From the NCBI GenBank assembly GCA_018433765.1, contig JAHDQO010000005.1, positions 124,001 through 188,000 on the forward strand: a DNA stretch of 64,000 nt, read 5' to 3'. This document shows, one piece after another, positions 4,671 to 42,535 of this stretch. The translations under genes were made by a program, and so were the position numbers. The notes below the pieces were generated by a model. The model saw only the letters and a list, made by a program, of their open reading frames with translations, searched no databases and had not been told where the DNA came from. The DNA is from Tissierellales bacterium. GTDB lineage: Bacteria > Bacillota > Clostridia > Tissierellales > Sedimentibacteraceae. Numbering within the stretch: the stretch's first letter is position 1; the number at the start of each line of letters is the position of its first letter.

Positions 4671-4713
4671 AAAAAACGTAAACCGCCCGAGCTTTTTAGC
4701 CCAGGCGGTCGGC
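4671..4713 (-). terminator. Riboswitch expression-platform terminator upstream of pflB
   Basis: On the minus strand ACCGCCTGGGCT pairs with AGCTCGGGCGGT around a short A-rich loop, followed after a few bases by TTTTTT. The 5' strand is also the 3' part of the ZTP aptamer, so ligand binding and termination are mutually exclusive. This implies an ON switch: ligand bound, transcription continues into pflB. Confidence 0.85.
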
Positions 4714-4780
4714 AATTCGATTATTAGTCACACTCCCTTGTGGTAGTCTCCACAATATCCGCCAGTCATGTGATAGTATT
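4699..4780 (-). promoter_or_regulatory. ZTP/ZMP riboswitch (pfl motif) in the pflB leader
   Basis: The minus strand shows the pfl-motif order: a P1 arm, GACTGGCGGA, a GTGG/CCAC hairpin, GGGAGTGTGA closing P1, then GCCGACCGCCTGGGC. GGCGG in the junction can pair with CCGCC in the 3' domain, the expected pseudoknot. The class binds ZMP/ZTP, the signal of 10-formyl-THF shortage, and was named after pfl genes. Here it would switch on formate production. Recognised by motif, not by a covariance search. Confidence 0.92.
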
Positions 4781-4887: not shown

Positions 4888-6231
4888 ATGTCTAAAGAGA
4901 TAGATTTAAGGAATGACCCCATAAAAAAGTTATTTTATCATTACTTGTTCGCATCAGTAACAGGAATGCTTGTTAAATCTATACATGGGGTTCTTGACGG
5001 TATCTTTGTAGGAAATGGAGTAGCGGATGTTGCATTAGGTGCTGTTAATATGGTAATGCCAGTTTTTTCATTATTTATGGGTGTAATAATGATGATTGGA
5101 GTTGGAGGTTCAACTCTTGTGTCAATGAACTTTGGAGAAGATAAAGAACAAAATGCAAAAAATGTATTTGTTCAGTCTCTGATATTAATGATTATTGTTG
5201 GTATAATAGCACAGATACTATTTTTAATAAATCCTGTAAAGATATGCCGATTTTTAGGAGCTGATGATGTAATATTAGACTATACAGTTGAATATGGTAC
5301 ATATCTAATATATTTTGCACCTTTTTTTGCTATAGCTATTGGATTAAATGTATTTGTTAGAAACGATGCTGATCCAAGAACTTCTATGTACAGTATGGTA
5401 ATAAGTGCAGTAGTTAATGCAACATTAAACTATATTTTTATATTTCCTATGAGAATGGGACTTAAAGGTGCAGCAGTTGCAACAGGTATAGCACAGATAG
5501 TAAGTTGCTTAATTTTGTTTACTCATTTTATTAGAAAGAAAGGCAAATTAAGATTAAAAACTAGTAATTTTAAGTTTTCAATAAACGATTTAATAAGGAC
5601 TTGTCAAATAGGATTTCCAAGTTTTCTTGGCGAAATATCCTTTGGTGTAGTATCCTTAGCTTTCAATAGAGTACTTATGGGTTTAGGTGGAGCACTCGCA
5701 GTATCAGCTTTTAGTATCATGATGTATGTTACTAATTTAACTTATATGGTATTTTTTGGAATAGGTCAAGCTGTTCAGCCTATAATAAGCTTTAATTATG
5801 GAGCGAAGAAATATGAACGAGTTTATAAAAGCTTTCATATGGCTGTAAAGACAGGTGTTATTTTAGGAATAATATTTACTGTTGTAGGGTTATTTTTTGT
5901 AAAAGATATAGTTATGCTCTTTAATAGAGATAATCCAGAATTAATAGAGATGGCAGTAGTAGCTAATAGATTCTTATTTTATACTTTTGCAGTGGCAGCA
6001 TACAACATATGTATTTCTACATTTTTTCAATCAACAGGGAATGCCAAAATTTCGTCAGCTTTAACATTCTTAAGAAGTTTTGTTATAGAATTATCTTTAT
6101 TATTTATATTAACTAATATATATGGCTTATTTGGAACTTGGTTAGTTTATCCTTTAGCAGAAATCATAGCACTAGCAATAGGTCTTTACTTTATGAAATT
6201 TAAACAGGACATAATACCTAGAATTTATTAA
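4888..6231 (+). CDS. MATE family efflux transporter
   Basis: 447 residues with about twelve hydrophobic segments in two similar halves, typical of MATE antiporters that export drugs or metabolites in exchange for Na+ or H+. The family patterns are seen in the N-terminal GVLDGIFVGNGVADVALGAVN region, in the matching G(I)GQAVQPIISFNYGAKK region of the second half, and in the QSTGNAK loop. A GGAAGTG ribosome site precedes the start. It is divergent from pflB and monocistronic. Substrate unknown. Confidence 0.88.
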   Translation: MSKEIDLRNDPIKKLFYHYLFASVTGMLVKSIHGVLDGIFVGNGVADVALGAVNMVMPVFSLFMGVIMMIGVGGSTLVSMNFGEDKEQNAKNVFVQSLILMIIVGIIAQILFLINPVKICRFLGADDVILDYTVEYGTYLIYFAPFFAIAIGLNVFVRNDADPRTSMYSMVISAVVNATLNYIFIFPMRMGLKGAAVATGIAQIVSCLILFTHFIRKKGKLRLKTSNFKFSINDLIRTCQIGFPSFLGEISFGVVSLAFNRVLMGLGGALAVSAFSIMMYVTNLTYMVFFGIGQAVQPIISFNYGAKKYERVYKSFHMAVKTGVILGIIFTVVGLFFVKDIVMLFNRDNPELIEMAVVANRFLFYTFAVAAYNICISTFFQSTGNAKISSALTFLRSFVIELSLLFILTNIYGLFGTWLVYPLAEIIALAIGLYFMKFKQDIIPRIY

Positions 6232-8155: not shown

Positions 8156-8324
8156 AATTGGATATAGCTCCGAGTTTATTTTCCTGTTTAAAGCTAATTT
8201 TATGGAATTTAAACCGTTAGGGTATAATTGGAAACGATTATGCCTCCCAGTGTGGAAAGGAGATTTAAACTGCGTAGATATCACATCTGCTTTTTTTTCG
8301 CATGGGCAGACTGTGATATTTTTT
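8156..8324 (+). promoter_or_regulatory. Structured leader RNA, unidentified riboswitch candidate
   Basis: The leader contains several possible stems, for example ATAATTG-GAAA-CGATTAT enclosed by AGGG/CCTC and a CAGT/ACTG pair, and then a strong terminator at 8278-8324. I could not match it to any riboswitch class I know (purine, THF, ZTP, SAM, lysine, glycine, c-di-GMP, T-box and others were considered). It sits upstream of a P5C-type dehydrogenase. Confidence 0.45.
8278..8324 (+). terminator. Leader terminator upstream of the P5C dehydrogenase gene
   Basis: ATATCACA-TCTGC pairs with GCAGA-C-TGTGATAT across a T-rich loop, and T-rich sequence follows at once. It lies about 250 nt before the next gene and far from the previous stop, so it is more likely an attenuator than the terminator of the upstream gene. 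Confidence 0.8.
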
Positions 8325-10819: not shown

Positions 10820-12118
10820 TTATAATTTATAAAATTGTTCAAATGATTTTTGAACATAATATTGATCAAGTACTCCTCCAAATTCTCTAATAGAGTGCAT
10901 AGCAAGCATTGGGTTTCCTATATCAATTGAACGTATATCAAGGTGAGAAGATGATATAGGGCCTATAGTAGATCCTCCTCTTTCATCTGAGCGATTTACA
11001 AATTTTTGAACAGGTATTCCTGCCTTTTTACATATTAATTCATAAACTGTATCGGAATCGCTGTCAGTAGTGTAATTTTGGTTAGCATTAATTTTTATGA
11101 CAGGTCCTTTGTTTATTTTAGGCTTATTAGTTGGGTCATGCTTTTCATTATAGTTTGGATGTACTGCGTGAGCCATATCAGCGGAAATCATATATGAACT
11201 ATATATTGCTCTATGAAAATCTTCTGTATCTCCACCCAGTAAAAATACGATTCTTTCTAGGATGTTTCTCAGCATTGGGGAACCAGCTCCCTGCTTAGTT
11301 CTGCTTCCTATTTCTTCATTGTCAAAACATACCATTAGCTTAGTAGATTGACCTGCTTTTGTATTTATTAATGCTTCTATTCCGGCACTTACCATTGCAA
11401 GGTCATCTAGTCTTCCGCATGAAATAAATTCATCATTTATTCCCATTATGCATCCTTTTTCATATTCGTATAGGAACAGATCAAAATCTACAATATCAGA
11501 TGATGATACTTTTAATTCTTTAGATAATAAATATTTAATATAATCTTCCTTAGCAAAATCTCCATCAGCTAATGACATTACAGGAAGCATATCTTTTTGC
11601 TTGTTGAGTTCAATACCTTCGTTTATTTTTCTATTCATATGTATAGCTAAATTTGGAATAATTAAAACAGGTTTTTTTATATTTACTAATTTGTTAACGG
11701 GATTAAGCAAATCTTTTCCTTTAATACTTACACGACCAGCAAAAGATAAAGGTCTGTCCATCCAAGTATTTAGAATAGGTCCTCCATAAACTTCAGTATT
11801 TAATTTTAAATAGCCATCTGAAACAATTTCAGGTGAAGGTTTTATCCTAAATGTAGGAGAATCAGTATGTGCTCCAATAATTCTAAATCCAGTTTCATTT
11901 ATTTCTCCATTTCCTGCGATAAAAGCAATAATAGCTGAGTCATTTTTAGTAACAAAATATTTTTTTCCTTTTTTTATGTTCCATTTTTGTCTTAGATCAA
12001 GTTCTTTAAAGTCATTTTTTAATAATTTTGATTTTATATTTTTGACTGCATGAAAAGAAGTAGGACTTTCATATATAAAATCTATAAGTTTTTCTGAAAA
12101 ATTTACTTTTTCATTCAT
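10820..12118 (-). CDS. apeB: M18 family zinc aminopeptidase
   Basis: 432 residues, normal for the M18 family (aspartyl/broad-specificity aminopeptidase). Metal-binding and catalytic blocks are visible: GAHTDSP, SCGRLDDLAM, CFDNEEIGSRTKQGAGS and the C-terminal HAVHPNY and SSHLDIRSIDIG segments. It removes N-terminal residues from peptides in the cytoplasm, fitting a peptide-fermenting lifestyle. GGGAG precedes the start. It is monocistronic. Confidence 0.92.
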   Translation of the reverse strand: MNEKVNFSEKLIDFIYESPTSFHAVKNIKSKLLKNDFKELDLRQKWNIKKGKKYFVTKNDSAIIAFIAGNGEINETGFRIIGAHTDSPTFRIKPSPEIVSDGYLKLNTEVYGGPILNTWMDRPLSFAGRVSIKGKDLLNPVNKLVNIKKPVLIIPNLAIHMNRKINEGIELNKQKDMLPVMSLADGDFAKEDYIKYLLSKELKVSSSDIVDFDLFLYEYEKGCIMGINDEFISCGRLDDLAMVSAGIEALINTKAGQSTKLMVCFDNEEIGSRTKQGAGSPMLRNILERIVFLLGGDTEDFHRAIYSSYMISADMAHAVHPNYNEKHDPTNKPKINKGPVIKINANQNYTTDSDSDTVYELICKKAGIPVQKFVNRSDERGGSTIGPISSSHLDIRSIDIGNPMLAMHSIREFGGVLDQYYVQKSFEQFYKL

Positions 12119-28583: not shown

Positions 28584-28666
28584 TATAGCGTAAACTATTA
28601 ATTTTAAAAATAATTGAGTGGTTTACATGTTTACTGCATCATTAAAATTTAATTTATGGTATTTAA

Positions 28667-28738
28667 ATCGTTATACGACTGACGGAAGTGGAATTAACCA
28701 CATGAAGTATATCGATTAACTAGCCGACCGTCTGGGCA
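28667..28738 (+). promoter_or_regulatory. ZTP/ZMP riboswitch (pfl motif) upstream of formylglutamate amidohydrolase and folT
   Basis: P1 ATCGTTATAC/GTATATCGAT encloses GACTGACGGAA and a GTGG/CCAC hairpin; then comes GCCGACCGTCTGGGC. GACGG pairs with CCGTC, where the pflB copy has GGCGG and CCGCC: a compensatory change in the pseudoknot. The conserved GGGAG stretch is here TGAAG, so this copy is slightly off consensus. It senses ZMP/ZTP accumulating when 10-formyl-THF is low. Confidence 0.87.
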
Positions 28739-28766
28739 AATAGCCCAATGCGTTCGGCTATTTTTT
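28721..28766 (+). terminator. Riboswitch expression-platform terminator
   Basis: TAGCCGA/TTCGGCTA and TGGGC/GCCCA form an interrupted stem followed by TTTTTT. It uses the 3' strand of the aptamer, predicting read-through when ligand binds. Confidence 0.85.
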
Positions 28767-35478: not shown

Positions 35479-36669
35479 ATGTTTAAAAAAGCAAAAGAAG
35501 CGTATCAGAGTCAGTTAAAAGAAATTAGAGATAGCGGATTATGGAAAGATGAAAGAATTATAACAACACCGCAAAAAGGCAGAATAAACACTACACAAGT
35601 TGATGGAGTTCTTAACATGTGTGCAAATAACTACTTAGGATTAGCTAACAATTCTTTAGTAAGAGAAGCTGCTAAAGCAAGTTATGATAATTGGGGATAT
35701 GGATTATCATCAGTTAGATTTATATGTGGAACTCAAGAAATACATAAAAAATTAGAGCAAAAATTAACAGAATTCTTAGAAACAGAAGATACAATATTAT
35801 ATTCTTCATGTTTTGATGCAAATGGAGGATTGTTTGAAACAATTACGACAAAAGAAGATGCAATAATAAGTGATGAACTTAACCACGCCAGTATAATTGA
35901 CGGGGTAAGACTTAGCAAAGCAAAAAGATATAGATATAAAAACAATGATATGTCAGATTTGGAAGCACAATTAATTCAAGCAGAAAAAGATGGAGCTCGT
36001 CTAAAACTAATAGCTACAGACGGGGTATTCTCAATGGATGGTATTATAGCAAATCTCAAGGGAATATGTGATTTAGCAGATAAATATGATGCTCTTGTAA
36101 TGGTAGATGACAGCCATGCAGTAGGATTTGTTGGAAAACATGGAAAAGGAACGCCGGAATATAGAGATGTTATAGGCAGAGTAGATATAATTACAGGAAC
36201 ATTAGGGAAAGCTTTAGGAGGAGCAAGCGGAGGATATACAAGTGGAAGAAAAGAAATAATTGATTTATTGAGACAACGTTCAAGACCTTATTTATTCTCA
36301 AATACTTTAGCACCTGCTATAGCTTCAGCATCATTAAAAGTTCTTGAAATGCTTACAGAAAGCACAGAATATAGAGATAAAGTTGAAGAAAATACTAAAT
36401 ATTTTAGAAAGAAAATAAAAGAATTGGGATTTGATATAGTAGAAGGAGAACATCCAATAGTTCCAATAATGTTAGGAGATGCTGTATTATCACAAAAAAT
36501 GGCAGAAAAAATGCTTGAAAAAGGAGTATATGTAATAGGATTCTATTATCCTGTAGTTCCAAAAGGAAAAGCAAGAATTAGAACACAAATATCAGCCGCT
36601 CATTCAAAAGAAGACTTAGATTTCGCAATAAATGCATTCAAAGAAGCAAAAGAAGAATTAGGAATTTAG
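35479..36669 (+). CDS. kbl: Glycine C-acetyltransferase (2-amino-3-ketobutyrate CoA ligase)
   Basis: 396-residue PLP enzyme of the alpha-oxoamine synthase family. It cleaves 2-amino-3-ketobutyrate with CoA to glycine and acetyl-CoA. The PLP lysine is in [16 protein letters not shown], with the aspartate of [13 protein letters not shown] and the N-terminal NNYLGL block. With tdh it makes the threonine-to-glycine pathway. GGAGGG precedes the ATG. Because 546 bp of repeats separate it from tdh, it may have its own promoter; none is clear. Confidence 0.95.
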
Positions 36670-36723
36670 TAAATTTAAAATTAAAAATGTAAAATTTAAA
36701 GTGAAATACGAAATTACAATTAA

Positions 36724-36753
36724 AAAAAATCTGCTGAAACATGCAGATTTTTT
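36724..36753. terminator. Bidirectional terminator between kbl and the RiPP cluster
   Basis: AAATCTGC/GCAGATTT stem with an eight-base loop and A/T tracts on both sides. It touches the last base of the minus-strand peptidase gene. Confidence 0.85.
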
Positions 36754-37502
36754 TATACTTTAGGTTGAAGATAATGATGACTTAAATTTTTATATACTTC
36801 ATAAAGATTTTTTTCAATTTTCTTATAAATTGCATTAAAATATAAAGAACCATACTCATAAAATATTGTTGAATCTAAATTAGGATAGTTGTAATAGTGA
36901 TTTTCTTTTATACCAAAGTCTTTTCTGATAGTATTTTCATAATATCGTGCATAACCTTCTTTCCACTCATAAAATGTAATATATTTAATGTCATTTAAAT
37001 TCAGCTTTTCAAATAATTCTTGCTTCATAAGTATAGAGTCATTAACCATGTTCTGTTCTAATAGCAGTACAGATTTTAAATAATATTTAATAAAATATTT
37101 ATTTGAATAGTCAAAATTATAATATATATCCCACATCATCTTATCTATATTAAGTTCTTTTTTTATCAGCATTTCATAATTTTCGTATTGATAGCAGTGA
37201 ACAAATTCATGAAATACATAAATCATATTAATTTTGCTTTTAACGATTTCTTTTCCTAAAATACAGCATGCTTTATATTTAAATTCTTGTACAGGAAATG
37301 ACGCAGCTGTTCTATCAGAAAAGTTTTTTTTCATAGTTACTTTTTTTGCATATTCATATCTATTAGTAATCTCATTATATTCATATATAGAAATAGTATT
37401 AAACTCTGCAATTCCTATTGGATATAGTTTATTAAAAAATGGATATAGTTTGTTTATTTTTTTATAATTTGAAATTACATTTGATAAAAAATTCTCTAAC
37501 AT
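36753..37502 (-). CDS. HExxH metallopeptidase-like protein of the RiPP cluster
   Basis: 249 residues from the ATG following AGAGGTGG; an in-frame ATG at 37556 would overlap the ABC gene but has no ribosome site. A zinc-peptidase motif HEFVH lies at about residue 100 and a possible third ligand glutamate about 85 residues later in YEWKEGYARYYEN. There is no signal peptide or membrane helix, so it is probably cytoplasmic. As last gene of the cluster, and because the exporter has no C39 peptidase domain, it is the best candidate for removing the leader peptide. I recognise no named family. Confidence 0.65.
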   Translation of the reverse strand: MLENFLSNVISNYKKINKLYPFFNKLYPIGIAEFNTISIYEYNEITNRYEYAKKVTMKKNFSDRTAASFPVQEFKYKACCILGKEIVKSKINMIYVFHEFVHCYQYENYEMLIKKELNIDKMMWDIYYNFDYSNKYFIKYYLKSVLLLEQNMVNDSILMKQELFEKLNLNDIKYITFYEWKEGYARYYENTIRKDFGIKENHYYNYPNLDSTIFYEYGSLYFNAIYKKIEKNLYEVYKNLSHHYLQPKV

Positions 37503-37548
37503 GATGAATTTACCACCTCTATATTCAAAGATTAAGCTTACAATTTTA

Positions 37549-39249
37549 TCAAGCATTGTTAGTACTGTAAATTTGATTATAAAAAAGTTTATTGAATGTT
37601 TTTGAATTATTTAAAGCATCATCAATACTTGAATATATCTCACATCCATTATCTAAATCTGTAAGTACTACTACTTTGTCCATGTCATTTATACTAGAAA
37701 ATCTGTGTGATATTTTTATTATTGTCTTTCCTTCAATATACTTTTCTATGCATTCAAATAATTTATTTTCAGATTCAGAATCTAATGCTGATGTAGATTC
37801 ATCAAAAACTATTAAATCAGGATCATACATTAACATTCTTGCTATATTTATCTTTTGTTTTTGTCCACCAGATAAATTACCACCAGTGTCTAATAAATCA
37901 ATATCAATACTTCCAACATCATTTATTAAATCTTTCATAAAAGGTTCATTGCATATTTTATCTAGTAAATGTTCATTATATTTATTTTCTATACCGATAA
38001 CAATATTTGATTTTAAACTTCCGGGAAATATACTTACATTTTGATTAACAACAAAAACTTTACTTCTTAGAGATTCTAATGAATATTCGTTTAGTTTGAT
38101 ATCATTAATATAAATTTTGCTGCTTTGATATAGGCCTAAAAGAATATTCAGTAAAGTTGATTTACCTACACCAGATTTGCCAACCAATGCTAATTTATCT
38201 CCCTTTTTTATACAAAACTTTGTATTTTTTAGAATATTACTTACACTATTATCATATGAAAAATTATCAAGGTTAAATTCTAATGTATCTATGTTGTTCA
38301 AAGTTTTTGTACCAGTATTTATTTCATTTTTTAAAAAAACACTATCATTTAAAAATAAAATAGAAGCTCTTAAGTCTCTTAAACCTATATTTGTATTTTT
38401 TAATTCTACAAGTGCATTAAAATATATATTTAAAATCATTTGTATGAAAATTATATCTTGTAAATAAAATTCATTTTTCAAATACAAAAAAACGCAAAAT
38501 ACTAATATTAATATCTTAATTATAGTAATTATCCCTTCTAGAATAATGCTTACTTTACCGGCATAAATATTTACTTTATTATTTTCACTTTCTATTTTTT
38601 CTACATATTTTGATACTTTATTAGAAAAGTTATTATATTTAAAACTTTGCTTTATGAAATCAATGTTTTTGCATAAATTAATAATATTTTTAAAGTTAGT
38701 AGAAGTTAAATTTTGCATTTTTAAACATAAATTCTGCAATTTTAAATTTAATCTCTTATAGAATATAACATTAACAATAAATAATGCAACAAAAAGGGCA
38801 GTAATAACAAAATTAAAAGTCGAGGATATTATTAAACTTATACAAATAGTAATAATTGAAACTATAAATCTTGTTACATTATTACATATAAAATTTGATA
38901 TATTATTTAAACTATCATTGATTCTTGAAACGTAATAAGTTGTATCAAAATTTTTCAACAATGAATAATCTACTTTAAACATAGATTCATATAGTTGTTT
39001 AGATTCTTTAACTTTAATATTTTTATTAAATTGATATCTAATAAAGTTGCTTAAATATCTTAGGAAATAAATTAATAGTATACATACTAAAATACTAATA
39101 CCATATATGTAAAAATCTCTATTAAGTTCTACTAAACTTAACATCTCTCTAATTAAAATAGGATTAATAAATTGCAAAATAACAACAATAGAATTTAATA
39201 TTAAAAAGATTAGAATGTATTTAATATATTTCTTAATATAATGTTTCAT
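37549..39249 (-). CDS. ABC transporter, membrane plus ATPase (RiPP exporter)
   Basis: 566-residue half-transporter: six hydrophobic segments in residues 1-310, then an ATPase domain with Walker A VGKSGVGKSTLLN, signature LSGGQKQKINIARML and Walker B LIVFDESTSALDSESE. There is no N-terminal C39 peptidase domain, and a full exporter would be a homodimer. It lies 45 bases after the radical SAM gene with its own GGAG site, so it should export the modified peptide. The sequence is unusually Asn/Ile/Phe-rich. Confidence 0.88.
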   Translation of the reverse strand: MKHYIKKYIKYILIFLILNSIVVILQFINPILIREMLSLVELNRDFYIYGISILVCILLIYFLRYLSNFIRYQFNKNIKVKESKQLYESMFKVDYSLLKNFDTTYYVSRINDSLNNISNFICNNVTRFIVSIITICISLIISSTFNFVITALFVALFIVNVIFYKRLNLKLQNLCLKMQNLTSTNFKNIINLCKNIDFIKQSFKYNNFSNKVSKYVEKIESENNKVNIYAGKVSIILEGIITIIKILILVFCVFLYLKNEFYLQDIIFIQMILNIYFNALVELKNTNIGLRDLRASILFLNDSVFLKNEINTGTKTLNNIDTLEFNLDNFSYDNSVSNILKNTKFCIKKGDKLALVGKSGVGKSTLLNILLGLYQSSKIYINDIKLNEYSLESLRSKVFVVNQNVSIFPGSLKSNIVIGIENKYNEHLLDKICNEPFMKDLINDVGSIDIDLLDTGGNLSGGQKQKINIARMLMYDPDLIVFDESTSALDSESENKLFECIEKYIEGKTIIKISHRFSSINDMDKVVVLTDLDNGCEIYSSIDDALNNSKTFNKLFYNQIYSTNNA

Positions 39250-39294
39250 TCTCTATACTCCAATCTAATATATTGATATTTATTTGTTTATGAA

Positions 39295-40599
39295 TTAACC
39301 ACAAGATATTTTGGTTTTTTCAATTGCATCTTTAGCATCAGCTTGTAAGAAATCGCAAAAATATGATATATGATCTGTTAAAGATCCATATACTTTATAA
39401 GCAATAGCTCTACACCCTCCACCGCATATATGTCTGTAACTGCAATCTTTACATTTTTCTATATCATCAACACTTAAATTAGATAACAGTTTTGTTATGT
39501 CACTATTAATTAATTCTTCATACCAGTTTTCATTTAAAATATTGCTAATTTTAAGCTCTTTGGTCATTAAATTTTGGCAAGGATAAATATTACCGGCTGG
39601 ATCTAGCGCTATAATACTAGTTGCTGCACCGCATGCGAGTTTATTTAAAATACTGATAAAATTAACATTTTTAGGGCGTATACTACTAGGATTTTCTAGC
39701 TTTCTATATTTTGGTACTAAAGGAATTTCACTATAATTATTAGGTATAAACCATCCATGTGTACTTTCTATTCCATATTCTTCATAGAGCTGTTTTGAAA
39801 AATGTTCAACATCATCAATATTATTTTTATTAACAACACTTCGAACTAAAATTTTATCTTTATTATATTCTGAAAATAGCTTAAGTGTTGAAATTATATC
39901 ATAATAATTAACATCACTCCTGTTTTTAGAGTTTATGTTAATATCAAAACTGTCGAGACTTACAGTAAATTTATCTACTATGTCTATCAAATCGTAGAAT
40001 TGATCCTTTAGAAGACTGCCATTAGTTAGCACTTCAATATATGTATTTTTATCCTTCACTGATAATATTAATTCTTTTAAATCTTTTCTTATTAAAGGTT
40101 CTCCACCAGTGAAAATAAATTTAACAACACCTTGCTTTTTTAATTTCTTTAATATTTTTATCCATTCAGATGTACTGAATTCTTTATAATCTTTATTAAT
40201 AAGTGTTCTATTATAGCAGTATGAACAATTAAAATTACATCTTAATGTTGCATGTATATAAGCTACTTTTAAATTACCTTGCTTTAATTTTTTTAAATAG
40301 CCAATATGATTTAATTTTTCTATTTGCATATCATTATTGGAAGCGAATAATATTTTTACTTCTATTAATTTATTGATGAATTTATTTATTTCATCATTAC
40401 ATACATCTAAATTATATTTCGAGATAAAGTAATTTCTTATCTCATTGATAGAGATATTGCCATTGCTATTATAGATATAATCAATTAAATTTTTTGATTT
40501 TTCATTTATTTCTATATATTTATCATTTAACGGACTATAAATAAAATATTTATTATTTTTATTTATTTCTATATATTTATCATCATAATATACTTTCAT
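39295..40599 (-). CDS. Radical SAM/SPASM peptide maturase with N-terminal PqqD-like domain
   Basis: 434 residues. Residues 1-90 look like the PqqD-type peptide-recognition domain (winged helix with beta strands). The radical SAM core has CNFNCSYCYN near 120 and GGEPLI. The C-terminal SPASM part has CGAATS, PCQNL, CKDCSYRHICGGGC and FC, enough cysteines for two extra 4Fe-4S clusters. Such enzymes install thioether or carbon cross-links in ribosomal peptides. It lies 118 bases after the precursor gene. GGTGAT precedes the ATG. Confidence 0.92.
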   Translation of the reverse strand: MKVYYDDKYIEINKNNKYFIYSPLNDKYIEINEKSKNLIDYIYNSNGNISINEIRNYFISKYNLDVCNDEINKFINKLIEVKILFASNNDMQIEKLNHIGYLKKLKQGNLKVAYIHATLRCNFNCSYCYNRTLINKDYKEFSTSEWIKILKKLKKQGVVKFIFTGGEPLIRKDLKELILSVKDKNTYIEVLTNGSLLKDQFYDLIDIVDKFTVSLDSFDININSKNRSDVNYYDIISTLKLFSEYNKDKILVRSVVNKNNIDDVEHFSKQLYEEYGIESTHGWFIPNNYSEIPLVPKYRKLENPSSIRPKNVNFISILNKLACGAATSIIALDPAGNIYPCQNLMTKELKISNILNENWYEELINSDITKLLSNLSVDDIEKCKDCSYRHICGGGCRAIAYKVYGSLTDHISYFCDFLQADAKDAIEKTKISCG

Positions 40600-40667
40600 A
40601 ATTCATCACCATATTTATTATTTTTTAAAACTAATTTCACATATTTATAAATACTTAATAATATGTT

Positions 40668-40699
40668 TACCCTGATAGATATAAATATCTATCAGGGTA
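40668..40699. other. Perfect 14-bp hairpin between precursor and maturase genes
   Basis: TACCCTGATAGATA pairs with TATCTATCAGGGTA around a four-base loop. No T tract follows on the minus strand, so it is not a standard terminator. It could protect the 3' end of a short precursor mRNA or damp transcription into the maturase, giving more substrate than enzyme. Confidence 0.8.
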
Positions 40700-40716
40700 T
40701 TAAAACTGCTTTTTTA

Positions 40717-40833
40717 CTATTCGTCTAAAATTCCACTTCCTGCACCTGAGCCAGAAGCAATGCCGCATTCACATGCACAATCTTTAGGTTTTTCATTTTC
40801 AAAGTCTACTACTTTTACATCAAAATTTTCCAT
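40717..40833 (-). CDS. Cys-rich RiPP precursor peptide (38 aa)
   Basis: A short gene with GGAGGG seven bases before the ATG. The product is 38 residues: an acidic leader (MENFDVKVVDFENEKPKD) and a core starting CACECG, followed by a run alternating Ser or Ala with Gly and ending ILDE. Three Cys in the first five core residues facing a Ser/Gly/Ala-rich tail resemble the hairpin layout of sactipeptides, in which N-terminal Cys sulfurs bond to alpha carbons in the C-terminal half. It is the first gene of the maturase-exporter-peptidase operon. Coding by position and ribosome site is convincing; the modification type is inferred. Confidence 0.85.
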   Translation of the reverse strand: MENFDVKVVDFENEKPKDCACECGIASGSGAGSGILDE

Positions 40834-41160
40834 GTTCTACCCTCCTTTCCTTCTCATTTTAAGTAAACGTAAATGTCTGTAACCATTATAAAATAATGGT
40901 AAATGTATGTTATTTAATCTTTTGGAATTATAGAGTATTAATTAACAAAGCATGTCCAAAAAATTATACATTTTATAGTAAATATTAACAATAATAACAT
41001 TTATACTAAATTATATACATAATATTAAAATATATATAAAATAACAAAATATAATATATATGTAATTATTTACTATTATAACACAAAAAAGAAATTTTTC
41101 AACAATACATATAAAAATTTTACATTAAGAACATAGCAGATTTTTTTTTATTTTAATGAT
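40834..41160. other. AT-rich non-coding stretch upstream of the RiPP precursor
   Basis: No coding frame with a ribosome site was seen on either strand. It should contain the RiPP operon promoter. A minus-strand TATAAT lies near 40901 within a CCATTAT/ATAATGG dyad flanked by two GTAAATGT repeats, a possible operator. No regulator gene is nearby. Confidence 0.4.
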
Positions 41161-41189: not shown

Positions 41190-41301
41190 TGAGAAACAAG
41201 TAATAAGGAAGCTTTATTAACATAAAGCAATATAGTTAAAAAGTAGAGGTTGTTTAACTGTAATATTCCGTGTTTTTCCGTGCCCTTCCGTGGTTAATTA
41301 A
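41190..41301. repeat. Composite repeat: hairpin element copy 9 and CACGGAA repeat copy 3
   Basis: A left arm AATGAGAAACAAGTAATAAGG leads to hairpin GCTTTATTAACATAAAGC (41211-41228). The C-to-T and G-to-A changes at the loop-closing pair are compensatory. TTCCGTGTTTTTCCGTGCCC and TTCCGTGG follow at 41266-41293, the reverse-orientation CACGGAA repeat. Confidence 0.8.
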
Positions 41302-41320: not shown

Positions 41321-42535
41321 ATGAAGATTTTACATACATCAGACTGGCATCTTGGTAAGCATCTTGAAGGAAAAGATAGAATAGAGGAACAAAAACTAAT
41401 ATTAGAAGATATAGTGAAATTATCGGAACAAAACGATATAGATATAGTAATTATAGCAGGTGATATTTATGATTCATATAATCCTCCTGTTAAAGCAGAA
41501 AAATTATTTTTTGATACAGTGAAAGAGATAACCAAAAGTTATAAAACTATAGTCATAGCCATTGCAGGTAATCATGACAGTCCTGAAAAATTAACTGCTG
41601 CTAATTCATTAGCTAAAGAACAGGGAATATTCATATTTGGAACAATAAACGATGAAATAGAAGAAACAAATTACGGAGATTTTCATATATACCAGCTAGA
41701 TAAAGGTGTACTCCAAGTGAAAAAAGAAAACGAGACATCAATAATTGCTCTACTTCCTTATCCAAGTGAGAAAAGAATAAATGAAGTTATTACTTGTTCT
41801 ACAGAAGATACAGAAGAGCAGATTGATTATTCTCAAAAGGTTAATCAACTATTTAATAAAATGAGTAAATACTATAAAGAAGATACAATAAATTTTGCTG
41901 TTTCTCATTTATATGTTATAGGTGGAGAAGAGACGGACTCAGAAAGGGTATTGAATGTAGGAGGGAGTTTAGGAGTTAATAAAGCTCATTTACCAAGCAA
42001 AAGCCAATATACAGCATTAGGTCATTTTCATAAACCACAAGTAGTATCTAATAAGAAATCAGCTTTTTATTCAGGATCAATCTTACAGTACAGCAGAAGC
42101 GAGATAAACTATGCTAAGCATATTAAAATTGTGAAAATAAAAGCAGGTCAGAAAGCAGAAATTGAAAATAAATATTTAAACAATTATAAACCAATAGAAT
42201 TGTTTAAATGTAAATCTATTAGTGAAGCAATTGAAAAATGTGAACAAAACAAAAATAAATCAATTTGGGCATATTTTGAAATACAAACAGATAGAGTCCT
42301 TAATCAATCTGAAATAAAAAAAATGTACGAGCTGTTACCTAACATAGTAGAAATAAGACCAACATTTAATGACAGCATAGAAGATTCTGAAGAAATATTC
42401 CTAAAAGAAGATAATATATATGATATGTTTAAAGAATATTATAAAAAAACTTATGGTATAGAACCAGAAAAAGAAGTTCTCGACATGTTTAATGAAATTA
42501 TAGATAAATTAAATACAGAAACTAGTGAGGTGTAA
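41321..42535 (+). CDS. sbcD: Nuclease SbcD, Mre11-like subunit
   Basis: 404 residues. Phosphoesterase motifs are TSDWHLGK, AGDIYDSYNPP, AGNHDSPEK, VSHLY and GHFHKP, and a C-terminal capping domain is present. With SbcC it forms an ATP-dependent exonuclease/endonuclease that opens hairpins and trims blocked DNA ends. AGAAAGGA precedes the ATG and sbcC starts three bases after its stop. This is the second such pair in the window. Confidence 0.95.
   Translation: MKILHTSDWHLGKHLEGKDRIEEQKLILEDIVKLSEQNDIDIVIIAGDIYDSYNPPVKAEKLFFDTVKEITKSYKTIVIAIAGNHDSPEKLTAANSLAKEQGIFIFGTINDEIEETNYGDFHIYQLDKGVLQVKKENETSIIALLPYPSEKRINEVITCSTEDTEEQIDYSQKVNQLFNKMSKYYKEDTINFAVSHLYVIGGEETDSERVLNVGGSLGVNKAHLPSKSQYTALGHFHKPQVVSNKKSAFYSGSILQYSRSEINYAKHIKIVKIKAGQKAEIENKYLNNYKPIELFKCKSISEAIEKCEQNKNKSIWAYFEIQTDRVLNQSEIKKMYELLPNIVEIRPTFNDSIEDSEEIFLKEDNIYDMFKEYYKKTYGIEPEKEVLDMFNEIIDKLNTETSEV

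Follow-up and report, generated by a model that had tools for sequence, protein, structure and literature searches.

Organization of the Locus

A radical SAM RiPP cluster of four genes lies in the window, the whole 64,000-nucleotide stretch of DNA that was analysed. The genes are read from the minus strand in the order precursor, maturase, ABC exporter, and HExxH protein. All of the genes that the first-pass annotation had placed here as a compact cluster are present, and the intergenic gaps (117, 45, and 46 bases in the same order) are close to the 46-118 bases it gave. The features of the locus are as follows:

36753-40833, minus strand: radical SAM RiPP cluster, four genes (open reading frames and sequence)
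40840-40850, minus strand: strong Shine-Dalgarno sequence of the precursor, GGAAAGGAGGG (sequence)
40717-40833, minus strand: RiPP precursor, 38 aa, MENFDVKVVDFENEKPKDCACECGIASGSGAGSGILDE (open reading frame; StsA match; homologues by eight other maturases)
40732-40779, minus strand: precursor core, residues 19-34, with Cys19, Cys21, Cys23, Gly28, Gly30, Gly32, and Gly34
40668-40699, minus strand: stable 14-bp hairpin between the precursor and maturase genes (fold -22.6 kcal/mol over a 77-nt stretch, z -6.5)
39295-40599, minus strand: radical SAM/SPASM peptide maturase, 434 aa (Pfam Radical_SAM E 8e-25, SPASM E 1e-4)
40354-40599, minus strand: predicted RRE (PqqD-like) leader-binding domain, residues ~1-82 of the maturase (fold of the model; CteB profile match from about residue 42/36)
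40216-40239, minus strand: CX3CX2C radical SAM motif, C121-C125-C128 (invariant in a ten-sequence alignment)
39355-39633, minus strand: SPASM domain with seven invariant Cys, C323, C341, C383, C386, C392, C396, and C415 (ten-sequence alignment)
37549-39249, minus strand: ABC exporter, membrane plus ATPase half-transporter (Pfam ABC_membrane, ABC_tran)
36753-37502, minus strand: HExxH putative metallopeptidase, 249 aa (or 267 aa from 37556, an upstream ATG overlapping the ABC gene)
37197-37211, minus strand: HEFVH motif of the HExxH protein
36723-36754, minus strand: terminator-like hairpin followed by a T run at the 3′ end of the cluster (fold -12.5 kcal/mol, z -4.5)
35479-36669, plus strand: flanking kbl (name read from the translation)
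41321-42535, plus strand: flanking sbcD (name read from the translation)

The four genes probably form one operon. The strong ribosome-binding site of the precursor, the 14-bp hairpin, and the terminal hairpin together suggest a single operon with extra expression of the precursor, and the 14-bp hairpin may damp read-through such that more precursor than enzyme is made. The hairpin at 36723-36754 was not among the sites listed by a simple terminator scan, and the number of sites from a promoter scan was not above that in shuffled sequences.

A recent gain of the cluster is likely, because its G+C content is low (~18-28% versus ~28-35% in the nearest flanking genes), the maturase is absent from every same-family genome searched, and its own genome has a single copy. 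In sister genomes, kbl and sbcD homologues occur at unrelated positions and no syntenic empty site was found; thus, the insertion site is not definable. Short repeated CACGGAA units (ccacggaagggcacggaaaaacacggaat, minus strand) are present between sbcD and the precursor, at ~41260-41295. Elsewhere in the window, one molybdenum/tungsten cofactor and two ZTP riboswitches were observed (8156-8278, plus; 4692-4779, minus; 28665-28744, plus).

The Precursor Peptide and Its Family

The precursor is comprised of an acidic leader (residues 1-18), which has no double-Gly site, and the core CACECGIASGSGAGSGILDE. Among its short open reading frames, the window has a single occurrence of a CxC motif with a Gly/Ser/Ala-rich tail; 100 sequences simulated from the window by a first-order Markov model gave none (mean 0.0), which argues that the precursor is not a chance product. 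In 1.23 Mb of fetched loci, all matches to the conserved-core motif adjoin relatives of the window maturase, the remaining motif matches being a few unrelated GC-rich frames and a more distant candidate (L028). The latter is an 83-aa peptide ending CLCKCNITSSCGGGGGGGKSLEV (~8611, minus strand), encoded upstream of a related maturase that has StsB as its top NCBIfam model; the two are likely a further sactipeptide branch.

A conserved short precursor beside a modifying enzyme is the general mark of a RiPP cluster, and the first-pass annotation proposed looking for homologous short peptides beside related maturases. Such peptides, intact and just upstream of the maturase, were found at eight other loci (L022, L023, L024, L030, L031, L115, L116, and L117), whose maturases are 29-41% identical (alignment A2). 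They come from genomes of the same order, an uncultured Clostridiales (RUG111, L030), and an uncultured Lachnospiraceae (L031). L030 and L031 were the useful ones among the matches listed from a profile search of genome contigs with the maturase alignment, the others being generic radical SAM motifs. All nine intact peptides, that of the window included, carry CxCG...GxG with Gly at every second residue, and C21, C23, G24, G28, and G30 (window numbering) are common to all in their alignment; the leader is not conserved among them. A ninth relative, L025, has a decayed precursor (~5760-5900, minus strand) that lacks an in-frame start codon and has a stop inside the core; it adjoins an intact maturase, a YcaO protein, an S41 peptidase, and an exporter.

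The family is rare. Within the order, 249 genomes yielded 11 with a match at E <= 1e-32, among them the window's own genome and some with more distant maturases. A sample of the class (391 genomes, E <= 1e-55) yielded two, including the window's own, and in a phylum sample of 398 the window's own genome alone was matched. No close maturase relative was found in plasmids and phages, where the best matches showed 32% identity over 69% of the query, or ~24%.

Several other clusters were observed during these searches. A YcaO cyclodehydratase is encoded beside the radical SAM maturase in L030 (7244-8899) and L025 (3036-4487), a hint of hybrid peptides with thioethers plus azolines or thioamides. 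Different clusters, with at least two radical SAM proteins, a subtilase-like or S8 peptidase, and ABC/FtsX genes, occur in L121 (Paraclostridium sordellii plasmid NZ_CP124296.1, where the cluster adjoins an agr-type autoinducer gene) and L053 (Peptostreptococcus). In L027, paired Cys-containing precursors of 53-56 aa (LDVEAQADPCK...; 5720-5890 and 11917-12078) belong to a cluster that also encodes several radical SAM proteins and a subtilisin-like peptidase.

Relationship of the Precursor to StsA

The window precursor matches the NCBIfam StsA model (NF045558) over residues 7-34 with 26.0 bits (E 6.7e-6), below the cut-off of 42, and this match links it to the known SACTIPEPTIDES. It also matches a StsA-related 'CxC' model weakly. 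The StsA match depends on residue order and not merely on composition, because it was lost in all five shuffles of the whole core, and shuffling the tail only lowered the score from 26 to 16-18 bits or abolished the match. Three other family precursors match StsA weakly (E 0.0035-0.032), and a search of 150 relatives with the model matched this genome alone. The first-pass annotation had considered the core unlike known sactipeptides. That claim is weakened by these two matches: the cluster appears as a variant of an already known sactipeptide kind, for which 'unrecognised kind' is too strong. An identification of StsA with the streptosactin precursor GggA was rejected; StsA is described as a sactipeptide precursor from Actinomycetota, with a separate RRE protein, StsC, that binds a WxxP leader (PMC12710340).

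The Maturase

The window maturase has the features that define radical SAM/SPASM peptide maturases, i.e., the CX3CX2C motif, a seven-Cys SPASM domain, and an RRE fold. In its AlphaFold2 model (pLDDT 81), an N-terminal RRE fold of three strands and three helices is followed by the radical SAM domain and then SPASM. The PqqD-like domain named in the first-pass annotation has no Pfam match; what stands is the predicted beta-beta-beta-alpha-alpha-alpha fold, as in an RRE. The nearest solved folds, CteB (best), TigE (second), SuiB, and SkfB, are all peptide maturases, EpeE is also among the fold matches, and CteB ranks first in a sequence profile search.

With regard to named families, the enzyme scores 113 bits with CbpB, 110 with ScmE, and 106.2 with StsB (NF045574), all far below the cut-offs; that of StsB, 625, places the enzyme outside this family. 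For the other named maturase models listed, its scores likewise stay under the cut-offs. The maturases of L022 and L024 have their best NCBIfam match in StsB, an enzyme reportedly shown by Precord et al. in 2023 to make sactionine bonds. With intact motifs and folds and all NCBIfam scores below cut-off, the window maturase is, judging from its sequence, a complete enzyme of an unnamed subfamily.

Export and Leader Processing

The ABC protein has no match to the C39 peptidase domain in Pfam, in agreement with the C39-less exporter of the first-pass annotation. Since the precursor also has no double-Gly site, another protease must cut the leader, and the HExxH protein is a candidate leader peptidase by its motif and position. 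This protein matched nothing in Pfam, NCBIfam, or PDB in sequence and fold searches and so falls in no known peptidase family found there, and its HEFVHC and WKEGYARYYEN segments are mostly invariant in four homologues, with HEF-HC and WKEG-ARY-EN as the invariant positions. The homologues from three other genomes (L128-L130) are stand-alone, none being beside a maturase, and the HExxH gene therefore looks recruited. Five relatives (L024, L025, L030, L031, and L116) encode an S41 peptidase in the cluster instead; in L022, L023, L115, and L117, the stretch from precursor through maturase to exporter showed no protease gene. The protease thus appears exchangeable within the family, and the swapped peptidase (HExxH, S41, or none) and occasional YcaO point to ready exchange of parts among such small clusters.

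Cysteine and Glycine Spacing

The nine precursors were compared by offsets counted from the Cys of CxCG (position 0). In the window, Cys are at -4, -2, and 0 and Gly at +1, +5, +7, +9, and +11. L024, L116, and L117 have the same Cys positions with Gly at +5, +7, and +9, and L031 has them with the Gly register shifted by one (+4, +6, and +8). In L030, L023, and L115, clustered Cys occur only at -2 and 0 and the Gly series ends at +7. L022, with Cys at -8, -6, -2, and 0 and Gly from +3 to +11, fits the mirror loosely. The Gly at +1 never varies and those at +5 and +7 hardly do; position +3 is not conserved. The third Gly rung (+9, or +8 in L031) is present in all five peptides with Cys at -4/-2/0 and absent in all three with -2/0 only. 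This correlation is suggestive of a third clustered Cys being accompanied by a third Gly rung, and it is statistically weak because the sample is small and L023 and L115 are close relatives.

Cys at -4/-2/0 mirroring Gly at +5/+7/+9 is the geometry expected for a nested thioether hairpin. The Cys lie in the N-terminal half of the core and the candidate acceptors in the C-terminal half, a nested-type arrangement that is compatible with the sactipeptide class and not proof of it, and that is absent from streptosactin. Because Gly has no beta carbon, Gly acceptors would require an alpha-carbon (sactionine) bond. The nested sulfur-to-alpha-carbon thioethers suggested by the first-pass annotation are plausible. 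The predicted pairs would be Cys23-Gly28, Cys21-Gly30, and Cys19-Gly32, and this exact pattern is put forward tentatively; the conserved Gly may also be structural instead of acceptors.

Nature of the Modification

The cluster is probably of the sactipeptide type. In favour of this reading are the conserved peptide beside eight maturases, the StsA match, the intact motifs, the fold matches, the mirrored spacing, and the invariant Gly. Against it count the StsA score of 26 versus 42 bits, the StsB score that is no better than those of CbpB or ScmE, the loose fit of L022, and the fact that CteB, the closest fold, makes a non-alpha thioether. The HExxH gene, not being common to the other clusters, counts against the pathway proposed below.

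It is unlikely that the maturase installs a modification other than a thioether (epimerisation, cyclopropanation, or a C-C bond) on a peptide whose Cys are free, disulfide-forming, or metal-binding. TigE, SuiB, and EpeE among the fold matches would fit such chemistry, and the YcaO enzyme encoded in L025 and L030 could act on those very Cys; however, no part of the precursor is better conserved than CxCG, the similarity to StsA argues for a thioether, and most systems that pair a Cys-rich precursor with an RRE/SPASM enzyme make thioethers. Quite unlikely as well is a ranthipeptide-type cluster, in which Cys would be linked by thioethers to beta or gamma carbons, the chemistry of CteB on SCIFF peptides. 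CteB (5WHY/5WGG) is both the best structural and the best profile match of the window maturase, and the SCIFF maturase model gives the L022 maturase 103.6 bits, but the window enzyme reaches 76.8 bits with that model (TIGR03974) against a cut-off of 425, and its precursor matches the sactipeptide model and not the SCIFF one. In addition, no Asp, Glu, or Thr acceptor is conserved at a fixed distance from Cys, the invariant positions being Gly. Sactionine bonds in unnested small rings (Cys i to i+3), with no nested hairpin, are very unlikely: small residues follow Cys23 as in streptosactin, whose four-residue rings are Cys25-Ser28 and Cys31-Gly34 (PMC8172795), but the conserved positions are +1, +5, and +7 instead of +3, and a run of two or three Cys separated by single residues leaves no room for such a ring on every one of them.

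On the sactipeptide reading, the precursor would be bound through its acidic leader by the RRE of the maturase. The radical SAM centre would abstract an alpha hydrogen from acceptors in the Gly-rich half, and attack by the Cys sulfurs would be assisted by the two auxiliary clusters. The product would carry up to three nested thioethers, most simply the pairs given above, with CxCxC zipped onto GxGxG in a small hairpin. The HExxH protein would then cut off the leader and the ABC protein would export the finished peptide, which is probably a narrow-spectrum bacteriocin or a fratricidal/signalling peptide. The joint proposal, that the family forms two-residue zippers by joining Cys at every second position to mirrored Gly alpha carbons in these pairs, and that a HExxH peptidase of unclassified fold removes the leader, is possible, yet doubtful as a whole.

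The cluster is best regarded as a rare, divergent subfamily of the sactipeptide type, set apart by its sub-cut-off NCBIfam scores, and not as a new kind of system. If true, it would offer a minimal, easily expressed system of one 38-aa peptide and one enzyme, allow study of the way a single maturase places several alpha-thioethers on glycines in register, and provide a simple sequence rule (CxCG-x3-GxG) for locating more members.

Comparison with Known Systems

To our knowledge, the proposed rungs would be tighter and more regular than those of other nested sactipeptides and cross-linked on glycine. Thuricin Z/huazacin and ruminococcin C share the nested hairpin, with mirrored and CxC bridges, respectively, although their cores are longer and their acceptors bulkier. 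In thuricin Z, Cys 16/12/8/4 are joined to residues 26/30/34/38, a spacing of four residues versus two in the window, and in RumC2 the Cys22-x-Cys24 pair is joined to residues 35 (Cys22) and 31 (Cys24) (PMC8172795). StsA/StsB likewise combine a short precursor with a radical SAM/SPASM maturase; however, as described in PMC12710340, they come from actinobacteria, where the RRE is a protein of its own (StsC) and the leader carries a KPxWxxP motif, whereas the RRE in the window is fused to the maturase and the leader lacks WxxP.

The streptosactin system (GggA/GggB) is similar in its short precursor, small acceptor residues (Ser and Gly), and single maturase. It differs in having two Cys six apart, unnested i+3 rings, and Rgg/SHP regulation in streptococci; in the window, Cys occur at every second residue and no regulator is present in the cluster, and no conserved set of CxxS/CxxG pairs was found in the nine precursors. 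CteB of the thermocellin/SCIFF ranthipeptides shares the RRE, radical SAM, and two-cluster SPASM architecture, but SCIFF precursors pack six Cys into 45 residues and carry a Cys-Thr link, features absent from the window precursor with its three Cys. TigE, of the poly-cyclopropylglycine RiPP system TigE/TigB, is the second-best fold match and acts at Ile in TIGSVS-type repeats, which are absent from the window precursor.
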